Positions 24,816-30,499 of a stretch of 64,000 bases of DNA are shown here, in pieces; position 1 is the first letter of the stretch, and each line of letters begins with the position of its first letter. Made by a program: the position numbers and the translations under genes. The notes under the pieces are model-generated. The model was not told the origin of the DNA, did no database searches, and was given only the letters and a program-made list of their open reading frames with translations. Origin of the DNA: Kribbella antiqua (GTDB taxonomy: Bacteria; Actinomycetota; Actinomycetes; Propionibacteriales; Kribbellaceae); NCBI RefSeq assembly GCF_004345665.1, contig NZ_SLWR01000005.1:62001-126000 (forward strand), written 5' to 3'.

Positions 24816-26378
24816 CTACGGGCGGCTGAGGGCGTCGGCGGCACCGGCGCCGCCGGAGACCGTCGCCAGGCCGTCGACGTCGGTGGCCACCGGCAGCTCC
24901 AGCAGGTGCTTGCCGAGGTGCTCCGGATCCGGCAGCTCGATCGGATAGACACCGTCGAAGCACGCGCGGCAGAGCCGCTCCTTCGGCACCGTGGTGGCCT
25001 CGACCAGGGTGTCCAGGCTGATGTAGCCGAGCGAGTCGGCGCCGAGCGAGCGGCAGATCTCCTCGGTGTTCAGGCCGTTCGCGATCAGCTCGGCGCGGCT
25101 GGCGAAGTCGATGCCGTAGAAGCACGGCCACTTCACCGGCGGCGCGGTGATCCGTACGTGGATCTCCTTCGCGCCGGCCTCGCGGAGCATCCGGATCACC
25201 GCACGCTGGGTGTTGCCGCGGACGATCGTGTCGTCGACCACAACCAGCCGCTTGCCCTCGATCACCTCGCGCAGCGGGTTCAGCTTCAGCCGGATGCCGA
25301 GCTGACGGATGGTCTGGCTCGGCTGGATGAAGGTGCGGCCGACGTACGCGTTCTTGACCAGGCCTGAGCCGTACGGGATGCCGGACTCCTCGGCGTACCC
25401 GATCGCGCCGGGTACGCCGGACTCCGGCGTGGCGATGACGAGGTCGGCTTCGACCGGGTGCTCACGGGCCAGCCGGCGGCCGATCTCGACCCGGGTGGAG
25501 TGGATCCGCTGACCGGAGATCTGGGTGTCCGGACGGGCCAGGTAGACGAACTCGAACAGGCAGCCCTTCGGGTCGGCCTCGGCGAACCTGGTCGAGCGCA
25601 GCCCTTCGGCGTCGACCGCGACCATCTCACCGGGCTCGATCTCACGGATGAACGAGGCGCCGACGATGTCGAGGGCGGCGGTCTCGCTGGCGATCACCCA
25701 GCCGCGCTCGAGCCGGCCGAGCACCAGCGGGCGGATGCCCTGCGGGTCGCGGGCGGCGTACAGGGTGTTCTCGTCCATGAAGATCAGGCTGTAGGCGCCC
25801 TTGACCTTCGGCAGCACCTTCGCCGCGGCCTGCTCGATGGTCAGGTCCGGGTAGCCGGCCAGCATCGAGGTGAGGATGTCGGTGTCGGAGGACGCGCCGT
25901 GCTTGGCGTTCGCCTTCGCGTGCTCGACCTCGACGTCCAGACCGAGATCGAGGTCGCCGCCGCCGTTGAGGCTGGCGGCGAGCTCACCGGTGTTGGTCAG
26001 GTTGCCGTTGTGACCGAGTGCGATCGACCCGGTCGCGGTGGACCGGAACGTCGGCTGTGCGTTGGCCCACACACTCGACCCGGTGGTCGAGTACCGGCAG
26101 TGGCCGATCGCGATATGCCCGCGCAGCGAGGCCAGAGTCGCCTCGTCGAACGCCTGGCTGACCAGCCCCATGTCCTTGTAGACCAGGATCTGACTGCCGT
26201 TGCTGACCGCTATGCCAGCCGACTCCTGCCCCCGGTGCTGCAGAGCGTAGAGCCCGAAATAGGTGAGTTTGGCGACCTCTTCCCCTGGCGCCCAGACCCC
26301 GAAGACGCCACAAGCGTCCTGCGGGCCGAGATCCTGCGGGTCAAGATCATGAGTGAGCCGACCATCGCCACGAGCCAC
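24816..26378 (-). CDS. purF: Amidophosphoribosyltransferase
   Basis: The protein has 520 residues. A 22-residue propeptide ends before the catalytic Cys in GPQDACGVFGVW, which becomes N-terminal after self-cleavage. The glutaminase half has YALQHRGQESAGI and CRYSTTGSS. The PRTase half has the PRPP loop RLVVVDDTIVRGNTQRA. The C-terminal LCRACFDG cysteines match [4Fe-4S]-type PurF. It makes phosphoribosylamine from PRPP and glutamine, the committed step of purine synthesis, and is feedback inhibited by nucleotides. Confidence 0.97.
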   Translation of the reverse strand: MARGDGRLTHDLDPQDLGPQDACGVFGVWAPGEEVAKLTYFGLYALQHRGQESAGIAVSNGSQILVYKDMGLVSQAFDEATLASLRGHIAIGHCRYSTTGSSVWANAQPTFRSTATGSIALGHNGNLTNTGELAASLNGGGDLDLGLDVEVEHAKANAKHGASSDTDILTSMLAGYPDLTIEQAAAKVLPKVKGAYSLIFMDENTLYAARDPQGIRPLVLGRLERGWVIASETAALDIVGASFIREIEPGEMVAVDAEGLRSTRFAEADPKGCLFEFVYLARPDTQISGQRIHSTRVEIGRRLAREHPVEADLVIATPESGVPGAIGYAEESGIPYGSGLVKNAYVGRTFIQPSQTIRQLGIRLKLNPLREVIEGKRLVVVDDTIVRGNTQRAVIRMLREAGAKEIHVRITAPPVKWPCFYGIDFASRAELIANGLNTEEICRSLGADSLGYISLDTLVEATTVPKERLCRACFDGVYPIELPDPEHLGKHLLELPVATDVDGLATVSGGAGAADALSRP

Positions 26379-26410: not shown

Positions 26411-26530
26411 TTACCAGCAGATCGCGCCGACGCAGGGTGGCTCACTGCTGCCGGCAGCTGACGCGGTCGTCGGGGCGGCCACCGCGAGAAACAGGGCGAC
26501 GCCGACCACGGTCAGCAACTTCTTGATCAC
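26411..26530 (-). CDS. 39-residue secreted peptide, candidate signal peptide (previously uncalled small gene)
   Basis: The minus strand encodes 39 residues from GTG at 26530 to TAA at 26411. The basic start VIKK and hydrophobic core LLTVVGVALFLAVAA lead to a signal-peptidase-like TTASAA site. After it only about 13 residues remain, ending PPCVGAICW, with two Cys four residues apart that could form a disulfide ring. An AGGGAC lies 6 nt upstream of the GTG. It lies 32 bp upstream of purF and is divergent from the tandem sensor-like regulators at 26631. I know no family for it; a signal, bacteriocin-like peptide or lipid-modified peptide are possible. Confidence 0.7.
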   Translation of the reverse strand: MIKKLLTVVGVALFLAVAAPTTASAAGSSEPPCVGAICW

Positions 26531-26568
26531 AGTTCGTCCCTTCAGAAATAATCCAAGCCATCGATTGA

Positions 26569-26609
26569 TTGCTCATTGTCGACGCGCTCTGTATATGGTC
26601 GGTTCCGAC
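26569..26609 (+). promoter_or_regulatory. Promoter and palindrome for the tandem regulator genes
   Basis: A -35-like TTGCTC (26569-26574) and a -10 TATATG (26592-26597) are spaced by 17 bp. Directly after lies the perfect 12-bp inverted repeat GTCGG-TT-CCGAC (26598-26609), placed where an autoregulator would bind near the transcription start. The secreted-peptide gene reads the other way from this same 100-bp region. Confidence 0.55.
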
Positions 26610-26630
26610 AAGTCGTGAAGGAGAAGGATC

Positions 26631-27614
26631 GTGCTCGAGCCGCTGGGGGTGGACGAAGCCACCTTTGCGGTCTATCACGCCCTTCTCAGCCACCCAGACA
26701 GTACGCCCGAGCAGATTGCGGCGCTAGTTGATCGGCCTCTGGAAGACGTTCAGGAGCTAATGCAGAAGCTCCGCAGACTGGAACTTCTGGTGCCAACGTG
26801 GACCAACCCGGACGGCGAGCACGCGGTCCATCCACGCGTCGGACTGACCAGCCTGGCCGAGCGACGGCGGACCGAGCTCAACACGATGCTGGGCGAACTG
26901 AAGGAAGCCGAGGCATCCGCCGAACTGATCGCCGAGCAGTACAACGAACTGCTGACCGCCCGCACGAGCGGTGACGTCGAGGTACTCAAGGGCCGCGCGA
27001 ACGCGTCTCGTCGGATCGAGGAACTCGCCCTGAAGGCCAGCGAGTCGTTCTGGGGTTTGATACCCGCCCACTTCGACGAATCAATCCCTGAGGTCGACAG
27101 GTCCCCGGACTTCGCGCTGCTCGAGCGCGGGCTCAAGATGCGGACTGTCTACCTCCAGAGCATGACCGCGTCGAGGCAGGCCTTGGAGTACGCGGGGAAG
27201 ATGCACCGCCTCGGCGGCGAGGTACGCGCGACCCCGACCCTGCCGATGCGGCTGCTCATCCTCGACCAGGCAATCGCCATCATGCCGATGGACCCGGAGA
27301 ACCCGACGGCCGGCGCGGTGATCCATCGCACACCGGCCGTCGTCTCGGTCGCCGTCGCCTTGTTCGACGCCTACTGGTCCCGTGCCGTCGAACTCTTCGA
27401 CCCGGACGACCGCGACGACCAGACCGAACTGACTCCACACGAGGCCGAGGTCCTACGCCTCCTCGCCGGCGGCGCCAAGGACGAACAGGTCGCCCGCCTG
27501 CTCGGCATCTCCCTTCGTACGGCGCGACGCATCACCGCCAACCTCTCCGAACGCCTAGACGCCGCCAGCCGCTTCGAACTAGGCGTAGCCGCCGCCAAAC
27601 GCGGCTGGGTCTGA
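26631..27614 (+). CDS. TrmB-like/LuxR-type two-HTH regulator, copy 1
   Basis: The protein has 327 residues. The N-terminal 70 residues form a TrmB/MarR-like winged helix (AVYHALLSHPDSTPEQIAAL). A coiled helical linker (about 75-120) follows. The middle domain has the pattern TPTLPMRLLILDQAIAIMPM, seen in TrmB-type sensor domains. The C-terminus is a LuxR HTH (LTPHEAEVLRLLAGGAKDEQ, then RLLGISLRTARRITANL). Such proteins are frequent in actinobacteria as stand-alone regulators and their ligands are mostly unknown. GTG at 26631 has GAAGGAGAAGG upstream. Divergent from the small secreted peptide. Confidence 0.85.
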   Translation: MLEPLGVDEATFAVYHALLSHPDSTPEQIAALVDRPLEDVQELMQKLRRLELLVPTWTNPDGEHAVHPRVGLTSLAERRRTELNTMLGELKEAEASAELIAEQYNELLTARTSGDVEVLKGRANASRRIEELALKASESFWGLIPAHFDESIPEVDRSPDFALLERGLKMRTVYLQSMTASRQALEYAGKMHRLGGEVRATPTLPMRLLILDQAIAIMPMDPENPTAGAVIHRTPAVVSVAVALFDAYWSRAVELFDPDDRDDQTELTPHEAEVLRLLAGGAKDEQVARLLGISLRTARRITANLSERLDAASRFELGVAAAKRGWV

Positions 27615-27619
27615 CACCA

Positions 27620-28606
27620 TTGTTCGAATCACTGGGCCTCACGGACCGCACAATCACCGTTTACCGTGAATGCCTGCAGAACCCGCGACTGCTGAATCAA
27701 ACCGGGTTTTCGGAGCTCGGCGAGAAACTCGAATTGCCGGCGGACGAAGTCGCCGCCGAAATCGATCACCTCCGCAATCTCGGCCTTGTGGTGCCGCGCT
27801 GGAACATCGCCGACGAGGAATACCCGCTGCATCCGTCGGTCGCATTCGAACGCCTGGCCGCACGCCGGCAGCAGGAAATCGATGATCTGGCCGCGAATCT
27901 CAAGAACGACCAGGTCGCAGCCAATCAGTTCGTCGCCGACTACAGCGATTTCCTGGTGGAGCGCACCGCCCGCGACATCGAAGTCCTCGAGGGACGCGAG
28001 CGCGCGCATCAGCGAATGCAGGACTTCCAGCCGACGAAGTCCTCCTGGGGAATGGTGCCTGCTTCGAAAATCCCCAGCGGCAAGCCAAGCGAAAGTCCTG
28101 ATCAGCCACTACTTGAGCGCGGTATCGACACGCGGTATCTGTTCCCTGAATCCGGGCTGAAGATTCGGGAGATTCGCGAGGTCTGCGAGCATCTCGTGGA
28201 ATATGGCGCCAAGGTCCGCACGGCGGCGTCGGTCCCGATGCGACTGATCATCTTCGACGGGGACACCGCCGTCATGGGCATCGACCCGGATGACACCTCG
28301 GTCGGCGCCGTCGTCCACCACAGCAAGGCTGTCGTGCGCCTGGCTCAGGAGCTCTTCCTGCACTACTGGAAGCACGCTGACGACCCCTTCTCCGACGGCC
28401 CGAGCAACTCCCGCGAGATCAGCTCGCAAGAGGCGGAGTTTCTCAGTCTGCTTGTGCAAGGGGCGACGGATGAGCAGGTGGGGCGGAAGTTGGGGGTTTC
28501 TATGCGGACTGTGCGGCGGATGGCGGCTAAGTTGAGTGAGCAGGTGGGGGCTTCGGGGCGGTTTGAGCTTGGGGTGCGGGCGGCTCAGCGTGGGTGGGTT
28601 AAATAG
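27620..28606 (+). CDS. TrmB-like/LuxR-type two-HTH regulator, copy 2
   Basis: The protein has 328 residues and is a clear paralogue of the gene 5 bp upstream. It has the same N-terminal winged helix (TVYRECLQNPRLLNQTGFSE), helical linker, sensor core (AASVPMRLIIFDGDTAVMGI) and LuxR HTH, ending GRFELGVRAAQRGWVK against SRFELGVAAAKRGWV in copy 1. It uses a TTG start without a visible ribosome site, so it depends on coupling to copy 1. In the last 150 bp codon use switches to G/T-ending codons, unlike the body of the gene. Confidence 0.85.
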   Translation: MFESLGLTDRTITVYRECLQNPRLLNQTGFSELGEKLELPADEVAAEIDHLRNLGLVVPRWNIADEEYPLHPSVAFERLAARRQQEIDDLAANLKNDQVAANQFVADYSDFLVERTARDIEVLEGRERAHQRMQDFQPTKSSWGMVPASKIPSGKPSESPDQPLLERGIDTRYLFPESGLKIREIREVCEHLVEYGAKVRTAASVPMRLIIFDGDTAVMGIDPDDTSVGAVVHHSKAVVRLAQELFLHYWKHADDPFSDGPSNSREISSQEAEFLSLLVQGATDEQVGRKLGVSMRTVRRMAAKLSEQVGASGRFELGVRAAQRGWVK

Positions 28607-28826: not shown

Positions 28827-30197
28827 TCAGACGGTCTTGAGGGCGGCTAGGAGTTTGGTGAGGGAGTCTCGGGCGTCGCCGAAGAGGAGGGTTGTTCGGG
28901 GGTCGTACAGGAGTTCGTTCTCGATGCCGGCGAAGCCGGGGCGCATCGAACGTTTGAGGAAGATGACTCGCTGTGCCTCGTCGGCGTTGAGAATGGGCAT
29001 CCCGTAGATGGGGGCGCTCGGGGTGTTGCGGGCGGCTGGGTTGACCACGTCGTTGGCGCCGACGACCAGGACGACATCGGTGGACTTGAAGTCGCCGTTG
29101 ATCTCGTCCATCTCGCGCAGCTGCTCGTACGGCACCTGCGCCTCGGCCAGCAGCACGTTCATGTGGCCCGGCATCCGGCCCGCGACCGGGTGGATGGCGT
29201 AGTCGACCTTGACGCCGCGCGCCTGCAGCTCCTCGACCAGGTCCCGCAGGGTGTGCTGCGCCTGCGCGACCGCCAGTCCGTAGCCCGGCACGATGATGAC
29301 CCGGTTCGCGTACCCGAGCAGGATGGCGACGTCCTCCGCACCACCCGAGATGACCGGCCGGTCGGACGCCGTACCGCCGCCCAGCGTCGACCCACCACGG
29401 ACCGCACCGAACAGGATGTTGAAGACGGACCGGCCCATCGCATCGGCCATCAGCTTGGTCAGCAACGTACCGGCGGCGCCGACCAGCGTGCCTGCGACCA
29501 GCAGCAGCGTGTTGCCGAGCACGTAACCACCGGCGGCAACGGTCAGACCGGTGAAGGCGTTCAGCAGCGAGATGACGATCGGTACGTCGGCCCCGCCCAC
29601 CGGCAGCACCAGCATCACACCGATCGCGAGGCCGATCAGGCAGAGCAGGATGCCGACCCACACACGCGGATCGGAGACCAGCCAGCCGGCGAGCGCGATG
29701 CCGCCGAGCACAGACGCGATGAATAGCACCGGCAGACCGGGGAAGATCACCGGCCGGGTCGTCATCAGTTCCTGCAGCTTGGCGAACGTCACGACCGAGC
29801 CAGAGAAGCTGATCGCGCCGACCAGGATGGTGAACGCGGTCGCGATCGCAGCGACCGTCTGCCCGTCGTGAACGTCGCCGAGCTCCATCAGGGCCACCAG
29901 CGCGGCCGCGCCGCCGCCGACGCCGTTGAACAAGGCAACGAGCTGCGGCATGTGGGTCATCTGCACCCGGCGCGACCCGATCACACCGCCGACGGTGCCA
30001 ACGCCGAGCGCGATCAGGATCGGCACCAGGTGGTCAGGCTTGTAGGCGACGAACGTGATCACCACCGCCAGCACCGCGCCCGCGGCGCCGAGCGCGTTGC
30101 CGGCCCGGGCGGACCGGGGTGACGACAGCGCCTTCAGCGCGACGATGAAACAGACCGCGGCGACCAGATAACCGATCTGGGCCCAGGTGGGGATCAC
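28827..30197 (-). CDS. pntB: NAD(P) transhydrogenase subunit beta
   Basis: The protein has 456 residues. Nine or so N-terminal helices form domain II. The C-terminal domain III binds NADP(H), with VIIVPGYGLAVAQAQHTLRD and VDYAIHPVAGRMPGHMNVLL. It couples proton flow across the membrane to hydride transfer from NADH to NADP+. GTG at 30197 overlaps the pntA2 stop by 4 bp. The last part of the gene shows strong C bias on its coding strand. Confidence 0.96.
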   Translation of the reverse strand: MIPTWAQIGYLVAAVCFIVALKALSSPRSARAGNALGAAGAVLAVVITFVAYKPDHLVPILIALGVGTVGGVIGSRRVQMTHMPQLVALFNGVGGGAAALVALMELGDVHDGQTVAAIATAFTILVGAISFSGSVVTFAKLQELMTTRPVIFPGLPVLFIASVLGGIALAGWLVSDPRVWVGILLCLIGLAIGVMLVLPVGGADVPIVISLLNAFTGLTVAAGGYVLGNTLLLVAGTLVGAAGTLLTKLMADAMGRSVFNILFGAVRGGSTLGGGTASDRPVISGGAEDVAILLGYANRVIIVPGYGLAVAQAQHTLRDLVEELQARGVKVDYAIHPVAGRMPGHMNVLLAEAQVPYEQLREMDEINGDFKSTDVVLVVGANDVVNPAARNTPSAPIYGMPILNADEAQRVIFLKRSMRPGFAGIENELLYDPRTTLLFGDARDSLTKLLAALKTV

Positions 30198-30499
30198 TTC
30201 TGCAGCTCCTTCTTGCGCGCCCCCGGACCACGGAACATCTCCAGCATCCGGTCGGTCACGACGAACCCGCCGACCATGTTCACCGTCGCCAGTACGACGG
30301 CCAGCAGCCCGACGACCACCACGATCGCGGACTCGGCCTGGCCGGTGACGATGATGGCGCCGACCAGGATCACCCCGTGGATCGCGTTGGCGCCGGACAT
30401 CAACGGGGTGTGCAGGGTCGACGAGACCTTGCTGATCACCTCGACGCCGACGAACGCCGCGAGTACGAAGATCGTCAAAAGCGCGATGGACTCGGTCAT
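30194..30499 (-). CDS. NAD(P) transhydrogenase subunit alpha part 2 (membrane segment)
   Basis: The protein has 101 residues and three to four helices. The conserved HTPLMSGANAIHGVILVGAI lies at its centre, with MLEMFRGPG near the C-terminus. This is the separate membrane part of the alpha subunit seen when pntA is split in two, giving a three-gene pnt operon. It overlaps both neighbours by 4 bp. Confidence 0.94.
   Translation of the reverse strand: MTESIALLTIFVLAAFVGVEVISKVSSTLHTPLMSGANAIHGVILVGAIIVTGQAESAIVVVVGLLAVVLATVNMVGGFVVTDRMLEMFRGPGARKKELQK

Follow-up and report, generated by a model that had tools for sequence, protein, structure and literature searches.

Does the short frame that faces two tandem regulator genes in Kribbella antiqua encode a secreted peptide signal, and which regulator would sense it? 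The window (the whole stretch of DNA analysed, 64,000 nt) contains the following features at this place:

24816–26378, minus strand: gene with amidotransferase and phosphoribosyltransferase domains, which we take to be purF; downstream neighbour of the peptide gene.
26411–26530, minus strand: secreted-type peptide precursor, taken as the predicted signal of the pair, 39 aa, GTG start, ending in PPCVGAICW.
26537–26543, minus strand: ribosome-binding site of the peptide gene, GAAGGGA, read from the sequence; the same site or a close variant precedes the homologues printed.
26631–27614, plus strand: R1, predicted receptor, with a TrmB-type winged helix (about residues 1–60), a long helix, a degenerate phospholipase D (PLD)-like sensor domain (113–258) and a LuxR-type helix-turn-helix (HTH, 263–327).
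27620–28606, plus strand: R2, which stands in tandem with its paralogue R1 (39% identity to R1); an accessory gene, lost or damaged in many relatives.

Genes for NAD(P) transhydrogenase subunits (28827–30499, minus strand) lie directly beyond R2 and are convergent with it.

The 39-codon frame at 26411–26530 reads VIKKLLTVVGVALFLAVAAPTTASAAGSSEPPCVGAICW and is followed by a stop. Its N-terminus is made of KK, a hydrophobic run and then A-S-A-A, and its signal type was judged by sequence alone. The tail, GSSEPPCVGAICW, has 13 residues with Cys-x4-Cys. No family name was obtained for the peptide in Pfam or NCBIfam. The gap between the end of the peptide gene and purF is 32 nt in the window and 10–95 nt across 38 genomes of the genus, so the two genes may share a common transcript.

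Conservation was followed in 38 genomes of the genus, the same ones that were covered by the family-level search. A first search gave 21 homologous peptides at E ≤ 0.0242, all between purF and the R1 orthologue. For the other 17 genomes the R1 locus was fetched, and a peptide of the same form was found in each. Altogether, a homologous frame of 38–50 aa stands between R1 and purF in 38/38 genomes. With a profile built from all 38 peptides, each genome gave a single strong match (E ≤ 1.4e-8); the runner-up in any of these genomes (9e-5) was the start of a longer frame. No variation was seen in the start, in Leu6 or in the closing Cys and Trp. The C-terminus has the form C-x5-CW in 16 peptides, C-x4-CW in 14 and C-x2-CW in eight, and the stop follows the Trp directly in 30 of the 38. 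All-pair codon comparison gave a pN/pS of 0.45 for codons 2–10, i.e. purifying selection, and a pN of 0 for the Cys-Trp codons, while the four codons before CW were hypervariable (1.18). The small frame with its ribosome site, signal-type N-terminus and 13-residue tail with two Cys is thus present as the original prediction had described it. Its expected conservation in close relatives was borne out (38/38), and it is not separated from the regulator, standing together with R1 in all 38 genomes in a pairing that recurs across the class. A disulfide or cyclic form of the peptide is possible in this genus; most relatives found outside it are pentapeptides without Cys.

R1 was analysed by domain and structure comparison. 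Its TrmB winged helix (PF01978) scored 28.2 bits against a cut-off of 25.6 and its LuxR-type HTH (PF00196, GerE) 30.5 bits against 23.5; the GerE domain of R2 is also above the Pfam cut-off. Among the 21 Pfam families matched by R1 at E ≤ 1 there was neither a TPR family nor an acyl-homoserine-lactone-binding domain. Secondary structure and structure matches cover the chain with the TrmB winged helix, an alpha/beta domain and the LuxR HTH, and the part where a lactone-binding domain would be expected is assigned to TrmB/PLD folds. The R1 model (pLDDT 89.2, pTM 0.56) matches archaeal TrmBL2 over residues 1–255 (Foldseek E 4e-14); the domains are placed differently in the two proteins, since the overall rmsd is 14–21 Å. 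The central domain was close to the PLD-family nucleases NucT (Z 16.9, 2.5 Å over 135 residues) and Nuc (Z 16.3), and residues 115–258 to the TrmB sugar-binding domain 2f5t (Z 15.2, 2.4 Å over 129 residues). PF11495 was matched in a relative, weakly and below the cut-off. Residues 263–327 match the structures of LuxR-type HTHs. The HKD motif H-x-K-x4-D is absent from R1, which has P205-x-R207-x4-D212 at what we read as the corresponding position. Among 62 sequences P205 and D212 are invariant and R207 is kept in at least 90%. Because this position reads as a nearly invariant P-x-R-x4-D, the PLD-like domain probably acts as a binding pocket rather than as an enzyme.

The R1 orthologue was present in 38/38 genomes and formed one unbroken match in 37 of them. 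In the remaining one (G018, locus L011) R1 is split over two frames, by a real mutation or a sequencing error, and the peptide is intact. The second regulator behaves otherwise. No R2 match adjoining R1 was found in 16/38 genomes, a count in which 21 genomes were examined over only about 0.4 kb beyond R1 (16 with a match, five without). In the 17 genomes with about 2 kb beyond R1, R2 was full-length in three, in pieces in three and absent in 11. The R2 copies of G013 and G023 contain stops, and R2 reads as a receptor paralogue in decay. The proposal of two receptor paralogues for one peptide does not survive these counts, and R2 was rejected as a necessary second receptor: it is unmatched beside R1 in 16/38 genomes and in pieces or interrupted by stops in others. 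Since R2 is lost or broken while R1 and the peptide persist, R1 was retained as the partner of the peptide.

Paralogues of R1 elsewhere in the genus were also inspected. In the genome of the window no Trp peptide was seen at L048–L050, i.e. three of the six other R1 matches (the start of L050 is approximate), nor was one seen beside the paralogues of other genus genomes at three loci (L093–L095). The L048 paralogue (contig C16, 72000–79000), which is R1-like and without a Trp precursor, has as neighbours a long divergent subtilisin-like frame and an ABC-ATPase-like frame, both recognized by eye.

The intergenic region between the peptide gene and R1 is 98–104 bp long in the 38 genomes. Two elements were considered there:

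26579–26606, plus strand: promoter/operator-like element TCGACGC-N3-CTGTATATGGTCGGTTCC, from the 38-region alignment, with most columns identical in at least 36 regions.
26598–26609, no strand assigned: earlier-proposed palindrome GTCGG-TT-CCGAC, whose right half varies between genomes.

The first element is composed of TCGACGC (26579–26585) and CTGTATATGGTCGGTTCC (26589–26606). The 18-base part occurs exactly once in its own genome, and two further sites differ from it by 3 mismatches. As no second good site of the element was found in this genome, no regulon is visible, and the single exact copy points to local regulation or to a mere promoter. The alignment ruled out the palindrome as a conserved operator: its right half-site, GAC, varies among the 38 genomes and is not kept as a palindrome. 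What stands of the predicted peptide–regulator signalling pair is therefore the conserved secreted-type frame facing R1; the two-receptor form and the conserved palindrome were given up.

The pairing was then followed outside the genus. In the order, R1 was matched at E ≤ 1e-25 in 54/293 genomes, 38 of them from the genus of the window. Twenty order-level loci were fetched, 17 from other genera and three being paralogues from the genus of the window. A secreted-type Trp-ended precursor was present at six of the 20, all from other genera, with the ends SPCIDCW (twice), VPCIGCW, AAGGFQW (a further GGFQW lies within this precursor), VANGFGW and GQDWGWE; the last precursor lies downstream of the receptor. 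At 14/20 no recognizable Trp precursor was found, looser rules included, and purF was not found at any of the 20 loci when searched for. In the class, R1 was matched at E ≤ 1e-28 in 69/394 genomes. The precursor rule flagged 15 of 40 class-level loci, one of which was judged spurious, and in five more (L117, L122, L127, L134 and L136) the motif was picked up with relaxed rules or lay at a greater distance from the end. No recognizable Trp precursor was found at 21/40, looser rules included.

A further set of named loci was obtained by scanning genome contigs with ten R1-like receptors and keeping the best 80 of 465 loci. These come mostly from Streptomyces and Kitasatospora, other genera being Streptacidiphilus, Actinospica, Catenulispora, Actinoplanes, Streptosporangium, Planomonospora and others. 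By the first rule a precursor was scored at 46 of the 80, 44 of them divergently upstream of the receptor. The later rule flagged 59 (56 divergently upstream), L194 among the 59 being judged spurious. Looser rules gave four more (L142, L186, L187 and L211), two of them decayed, and at 18/80 no Trp precursor was recognized, looser rules included. Over all scans, the spurious matches dropped by eye were L091, L092, L103 and L194, and L178 under the first rule.

R1-like regulators with a divergent Trp-ended precursor beside them occur in Streptomyces, Kitasatospora, Catenulispora and other genera. The Trp pentapeptide ends include VIGWD, SINWD, TTAWE, DLGWQ and CIDCW, with up to six copies per precursor. 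Tandem units were VIGWD ×5 in S. lavendulae, SINWD ×4 in S. roseus and TTAWE ×4 in S. goshikiensis, with NTIWD ×3 and DTIGWD ×3 as further examples among the best 80 of the 465 loci. Cysteine forms were CAGCWS in Actinospica and CGACWE in Catenulispora. Units in L211 and L142 are decayed, with GWQ changed to GRQ in the last copies and the last copy truncated; these are possibly signals being lost.

Whole-genome searches gave ten receptor matches at E ≤ 1e-20 in each of S. lavendulae and Streptomyces sp. CB01881, with a Trp precursor at only 3/10 in each under a loose rule. The three S. lavendulae precursors are different (VIGWD ×5, DTGWT ×6 and DVGWN ×3), and those of CB01881 carry SISWD, SLGWG and DLRWE. 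Receptors were also found on 68 plasmid records. Four of the six plasmid regions examined carry a precursor; three are annotated only as 'hypothetical protein', and in a S. clavuligerus plasmid DLPWT occurs twice in one unannotated precursor. Two plasmid cassettes, L222 (Streptomyces sp. NBC_01343) and L221 (Streptomyces sp. HUAS CX7), adjoin biosynthetic-type genes, respectively a luciferase-like monooxygenase and flavin reductase, and ATP-grasp proteins and a BTAD regulator; these genes are possible targets. No phage copy was found at E 1e-10 in a phage collection of 50,697 records, and the 64 viral-contig stretches that fit the pattern included no relative. Precursors other than that of the window gave only below-cut-off matches to named families (Pfam 1/4, NCBIfam 3/3).

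The extent of the repeated unit was read from 48 distinct multi-copy precursors, near-identical precursors of related strains being counted separately. The copies agree at 98–100% at positions –3 to +1 around the Trp; since the copies had been selected on positions –3 to 0, the independent facts are the 98% at +1 and the drop to 32% at –4 and 53% at +2. Agreement at +3 to +7 is 27–69%. The Trp is second-last, with one residue after it, in 68/84 distinct precursors. The mature unit is likely to be a pentapeptide, roughly [SDGV][ILFM][GNST]W[DGQET], and CxxCW is its cysteine form, of which most of the genus of the window has an enlarged version. Peptide motif follows receptor phylogeny. On a maximum-likelihood tree of 87 receptors, 17 changes of motif label were counted against a shuffled mean of 39.1 (0/200 shuffles as low), a result to which near-copies contribute. 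The genus of the window falls together with the order-level CIDCW/CIGCW loci (95/86), a placement for which the tree program gave a long-branch warning.

Several controls were made for the position and frequency of the motif. Within 1 kb, on the divergent upstream side, 44/51 small secreted-type frames had a Trp in the last nine residues, against 1/32 for the three remaining sides. Farther than 1 kb away in the same DNA, 21/51 such frames also had it, so a Trp close to the C-terminus says little when taken alone. Everything outside the divergent upstream 1 kb, taken together, gave 22/83 against the 44/51 (Fisher 8e-12). Repeated Trp motifs were sharper, with 30/51 divergently upstream and 1/83 elsewhere in the same DNA. 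As a separate control, 150 long open frames taken as genes were drawn from eight class genomes (twenty stretches of 20 kb). The precursor rule, within 1 kb, held at 56/80 of the best 80 of 465 loci vs 3/150 control genes (Fisher 2e-30), and at least two copies were present at 36/80 vs 0/150 (Fisher 5e-20); these P values overstate independence because the loci are related to each other. The scan rule was changed between scans, and the motif was already known from other loci when the 80 named ones were retrieved.

A third gene recurs at the named loci. A protein of about 90–130 aa is encoded divergently upstream of the receptor at 65/80 (best 80 of 465 loci), beyond the precursor or between precursor and receptor. 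The example is taken from loci L138–L217:

L172, 2215–2538, minus strand: companion protein, divergent upstream of the receptor.

No Pfam match was found in the three copies tested. Its model has a ferredoxin-like fold (pLDDT 88.6), and the best PDB match (E 0.014) gives no confident solved relative. In the 38 genomes of the genus it had three weak, partial matches (E 0.005–0.01) inside longer frames; as no convincing match exists there, the companion is not essential to the peptide–receptor pair. No recurring importer or protease gene was found among 89 scanned neighbour proteins within about 3 kb of the receptor, and at E ≤ 1e-6 no Pfam family occurred in more than 6/89 (top 25 of 76 families by count). 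The commonest neighbours of the named loci were FG-GAP repeat proteins (6/89); CHAP domains occurred in 3/89.

We consider it probable that the locus encodes a secreted peptide pheromone and, in R1, its cytoplasmic one-component receptor. The precursor would be exported through its N-terminal signal sequence, and proteases would free a C-terminal Trp peptide, five residues long in most relatives and in the window CVGAICW or a slightly longer form, perhaps with a disulfide. The peptide would re-enter the cell, probably through an oligopeptide permease, and would bind the PLD-like domain of R1, which has no HKD catalytic residues. Peptide-bound R1 may then alter its grip on DNA and regulate at least the shared divergent promoter.

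The same anatomy would serve self-sensing, in which the re-imported peptide reports to the cell its own export, protease activity or growth phase. One strong copy per genus genome, beside the housekeeping gene purF, fits such a role; the hypervariable residues before a fixed Cys-Trp and the distinct peptides that accompany receptors of a single Streptomyces genome fit signal specificity better, and self-sensing without communication between cells appears unlikely. It is rather improbable that the peptides have an antimicrobial or other bioactivity of their own (as a bacteriocin or a modified RiPP) and that the regulator merely controls their gene. In keeping with such products are the small size, the secreted type and the Cys or Trp of the peptides, the two plasmid loci among biosynthetic-type genes and a companion that could be a tailoring partner. 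Against them, the units have five residues and several copies, the top 25 of 76 neighbour families contain no recurrent modifying enzyme or transporter, and the motif tracks receptor phylogeny.

A leader frame upstream of purF, controlling its translation or transcription by means of a peptide without a role of its own, would explain why the frame ends 10–95 nt before purF in 38/38 genus genomes. This is very improbable, as it is the amino acids of the N-terminus and Cys-Trp that are conserved and the N-terminus is signal-like; outside the genus, precursors adjoin R1-like regulators, and purF was not found when searched for at the 20 order-level loci. Small frames are common in GC-rich DNA, and a chance frame in such intergenic DNA might have been suspected here, but this is refuted by the 38/38 conservation and the 3/150 background, which leave it hardly any probability.

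The preferred reading, a secreted pheromone sensed by R1, can be extended to the class, and we lean towards this extension with somewhat less assurance. Actinomycetota would possess a class-wide, multi-channel pheromone system made of multi-copy Trp-pentapeptide precursors, receptors of a new class that combines a TrmB winged helix, a dead phospholipase D and a LuxR HTH, and often a third, ferredoxin-fold partner, with several channels per genome and on plasmids, giving ligands to many orphan LuxR-type regulators. No prior description of the Trp-peptide/R1 system was found in openly licensed literature, where the motif strings occurred only in four works on unrelated subjects, and the Trp peptides with R1-like regulators look like an undescribed family of chemical signals and receptors. 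The genome itself spells the candidate ligands beside the LuxR-type regulators. As these are genome-encoded, about five residues long and cheap to synthesize, the signalling idea is directly testable. If true, it would equip Streptomyces with peptide-operated switches, some of them close to biosynthetic-type genes, and would yield orthogonal parts for use in engineering. Signals of Actinomycetota are typically small molecules made by enzymes, according to a passage of a 2023 paper (PMC10075063), and a section of a 2016 review (PMC4748050) calls actinobacterial LuxR proteins intriguing, no AHLs being known there.

Among known systems, the nearest in organization are the RRNPP systems of Bacillota (Rap-Phr, NprR-NprX, PlcR-PapR), which share the adjacent secreted-type propeptide and regulator, seen here in 38/38 genus genomes. 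Their mature signal is a short C-terminal peptide, a pentapeptide for Phr. R1, with 327 aa, is inside the 250–500 aa range of RRNPP receptors, but has in place of TPRs a TrmB winged helix, a PLD-like domain and a LuxR HTH; many precursors here carry 2–6 units, and the hosts are Actinomycetota. RRNPP criteria, as given in part of PMC10075063, are a TPR receptor and a secreted propeptide gene adjoining a cytoplasmic regulator. The system was not filed under RRNPP because its receptor fails the defining feature, though it would work alike.

In the ComR-XIP and Rgg-SHP systems of streptococci, a short peptide, Trp-rich in XIP, is sensed by an adjoining one-component regulator. The receptor family is unrelated to R1, and the precursors described here differ by their multiple copies and Sec-type N-termini. 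The yeast alpha-factor precursor, also secreted, contains several copies of one short pheromone, which is sensed by a GPCR; this eukaryotic likeness is to be taken as an analogy only. R1 resembles the TrmB family (archaeal TrmB, TrmBL2) by PF01978 above the cut-off, by TrmBL2 as its best solved structure and by a middle domain that best matches PLD-family proteins and the TrmB sugar-binding domain, and differs from it by the extra C-terminal LuxR HTH and the paired secreted-type peptide. With the actinobacterial LuxR solos it shares the LuxR-type HTH of a regulator; it differs in that no acyl-homoserine-lactone-binding domain was detected in R1 and that a ligand gene can now be proposed. Finally, BldK of Streptomyces coelicolor imports a peptide of 655 Da that presumably serves as an extracellular signal for aerial mycelium formation, as stated in a passage of a 2022 pangenome paper (PMC9640686). 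If the pheromone reading is true, the Trp peptides would be candidates to compare with such unidentified peptide signals imported by Streptomyces.
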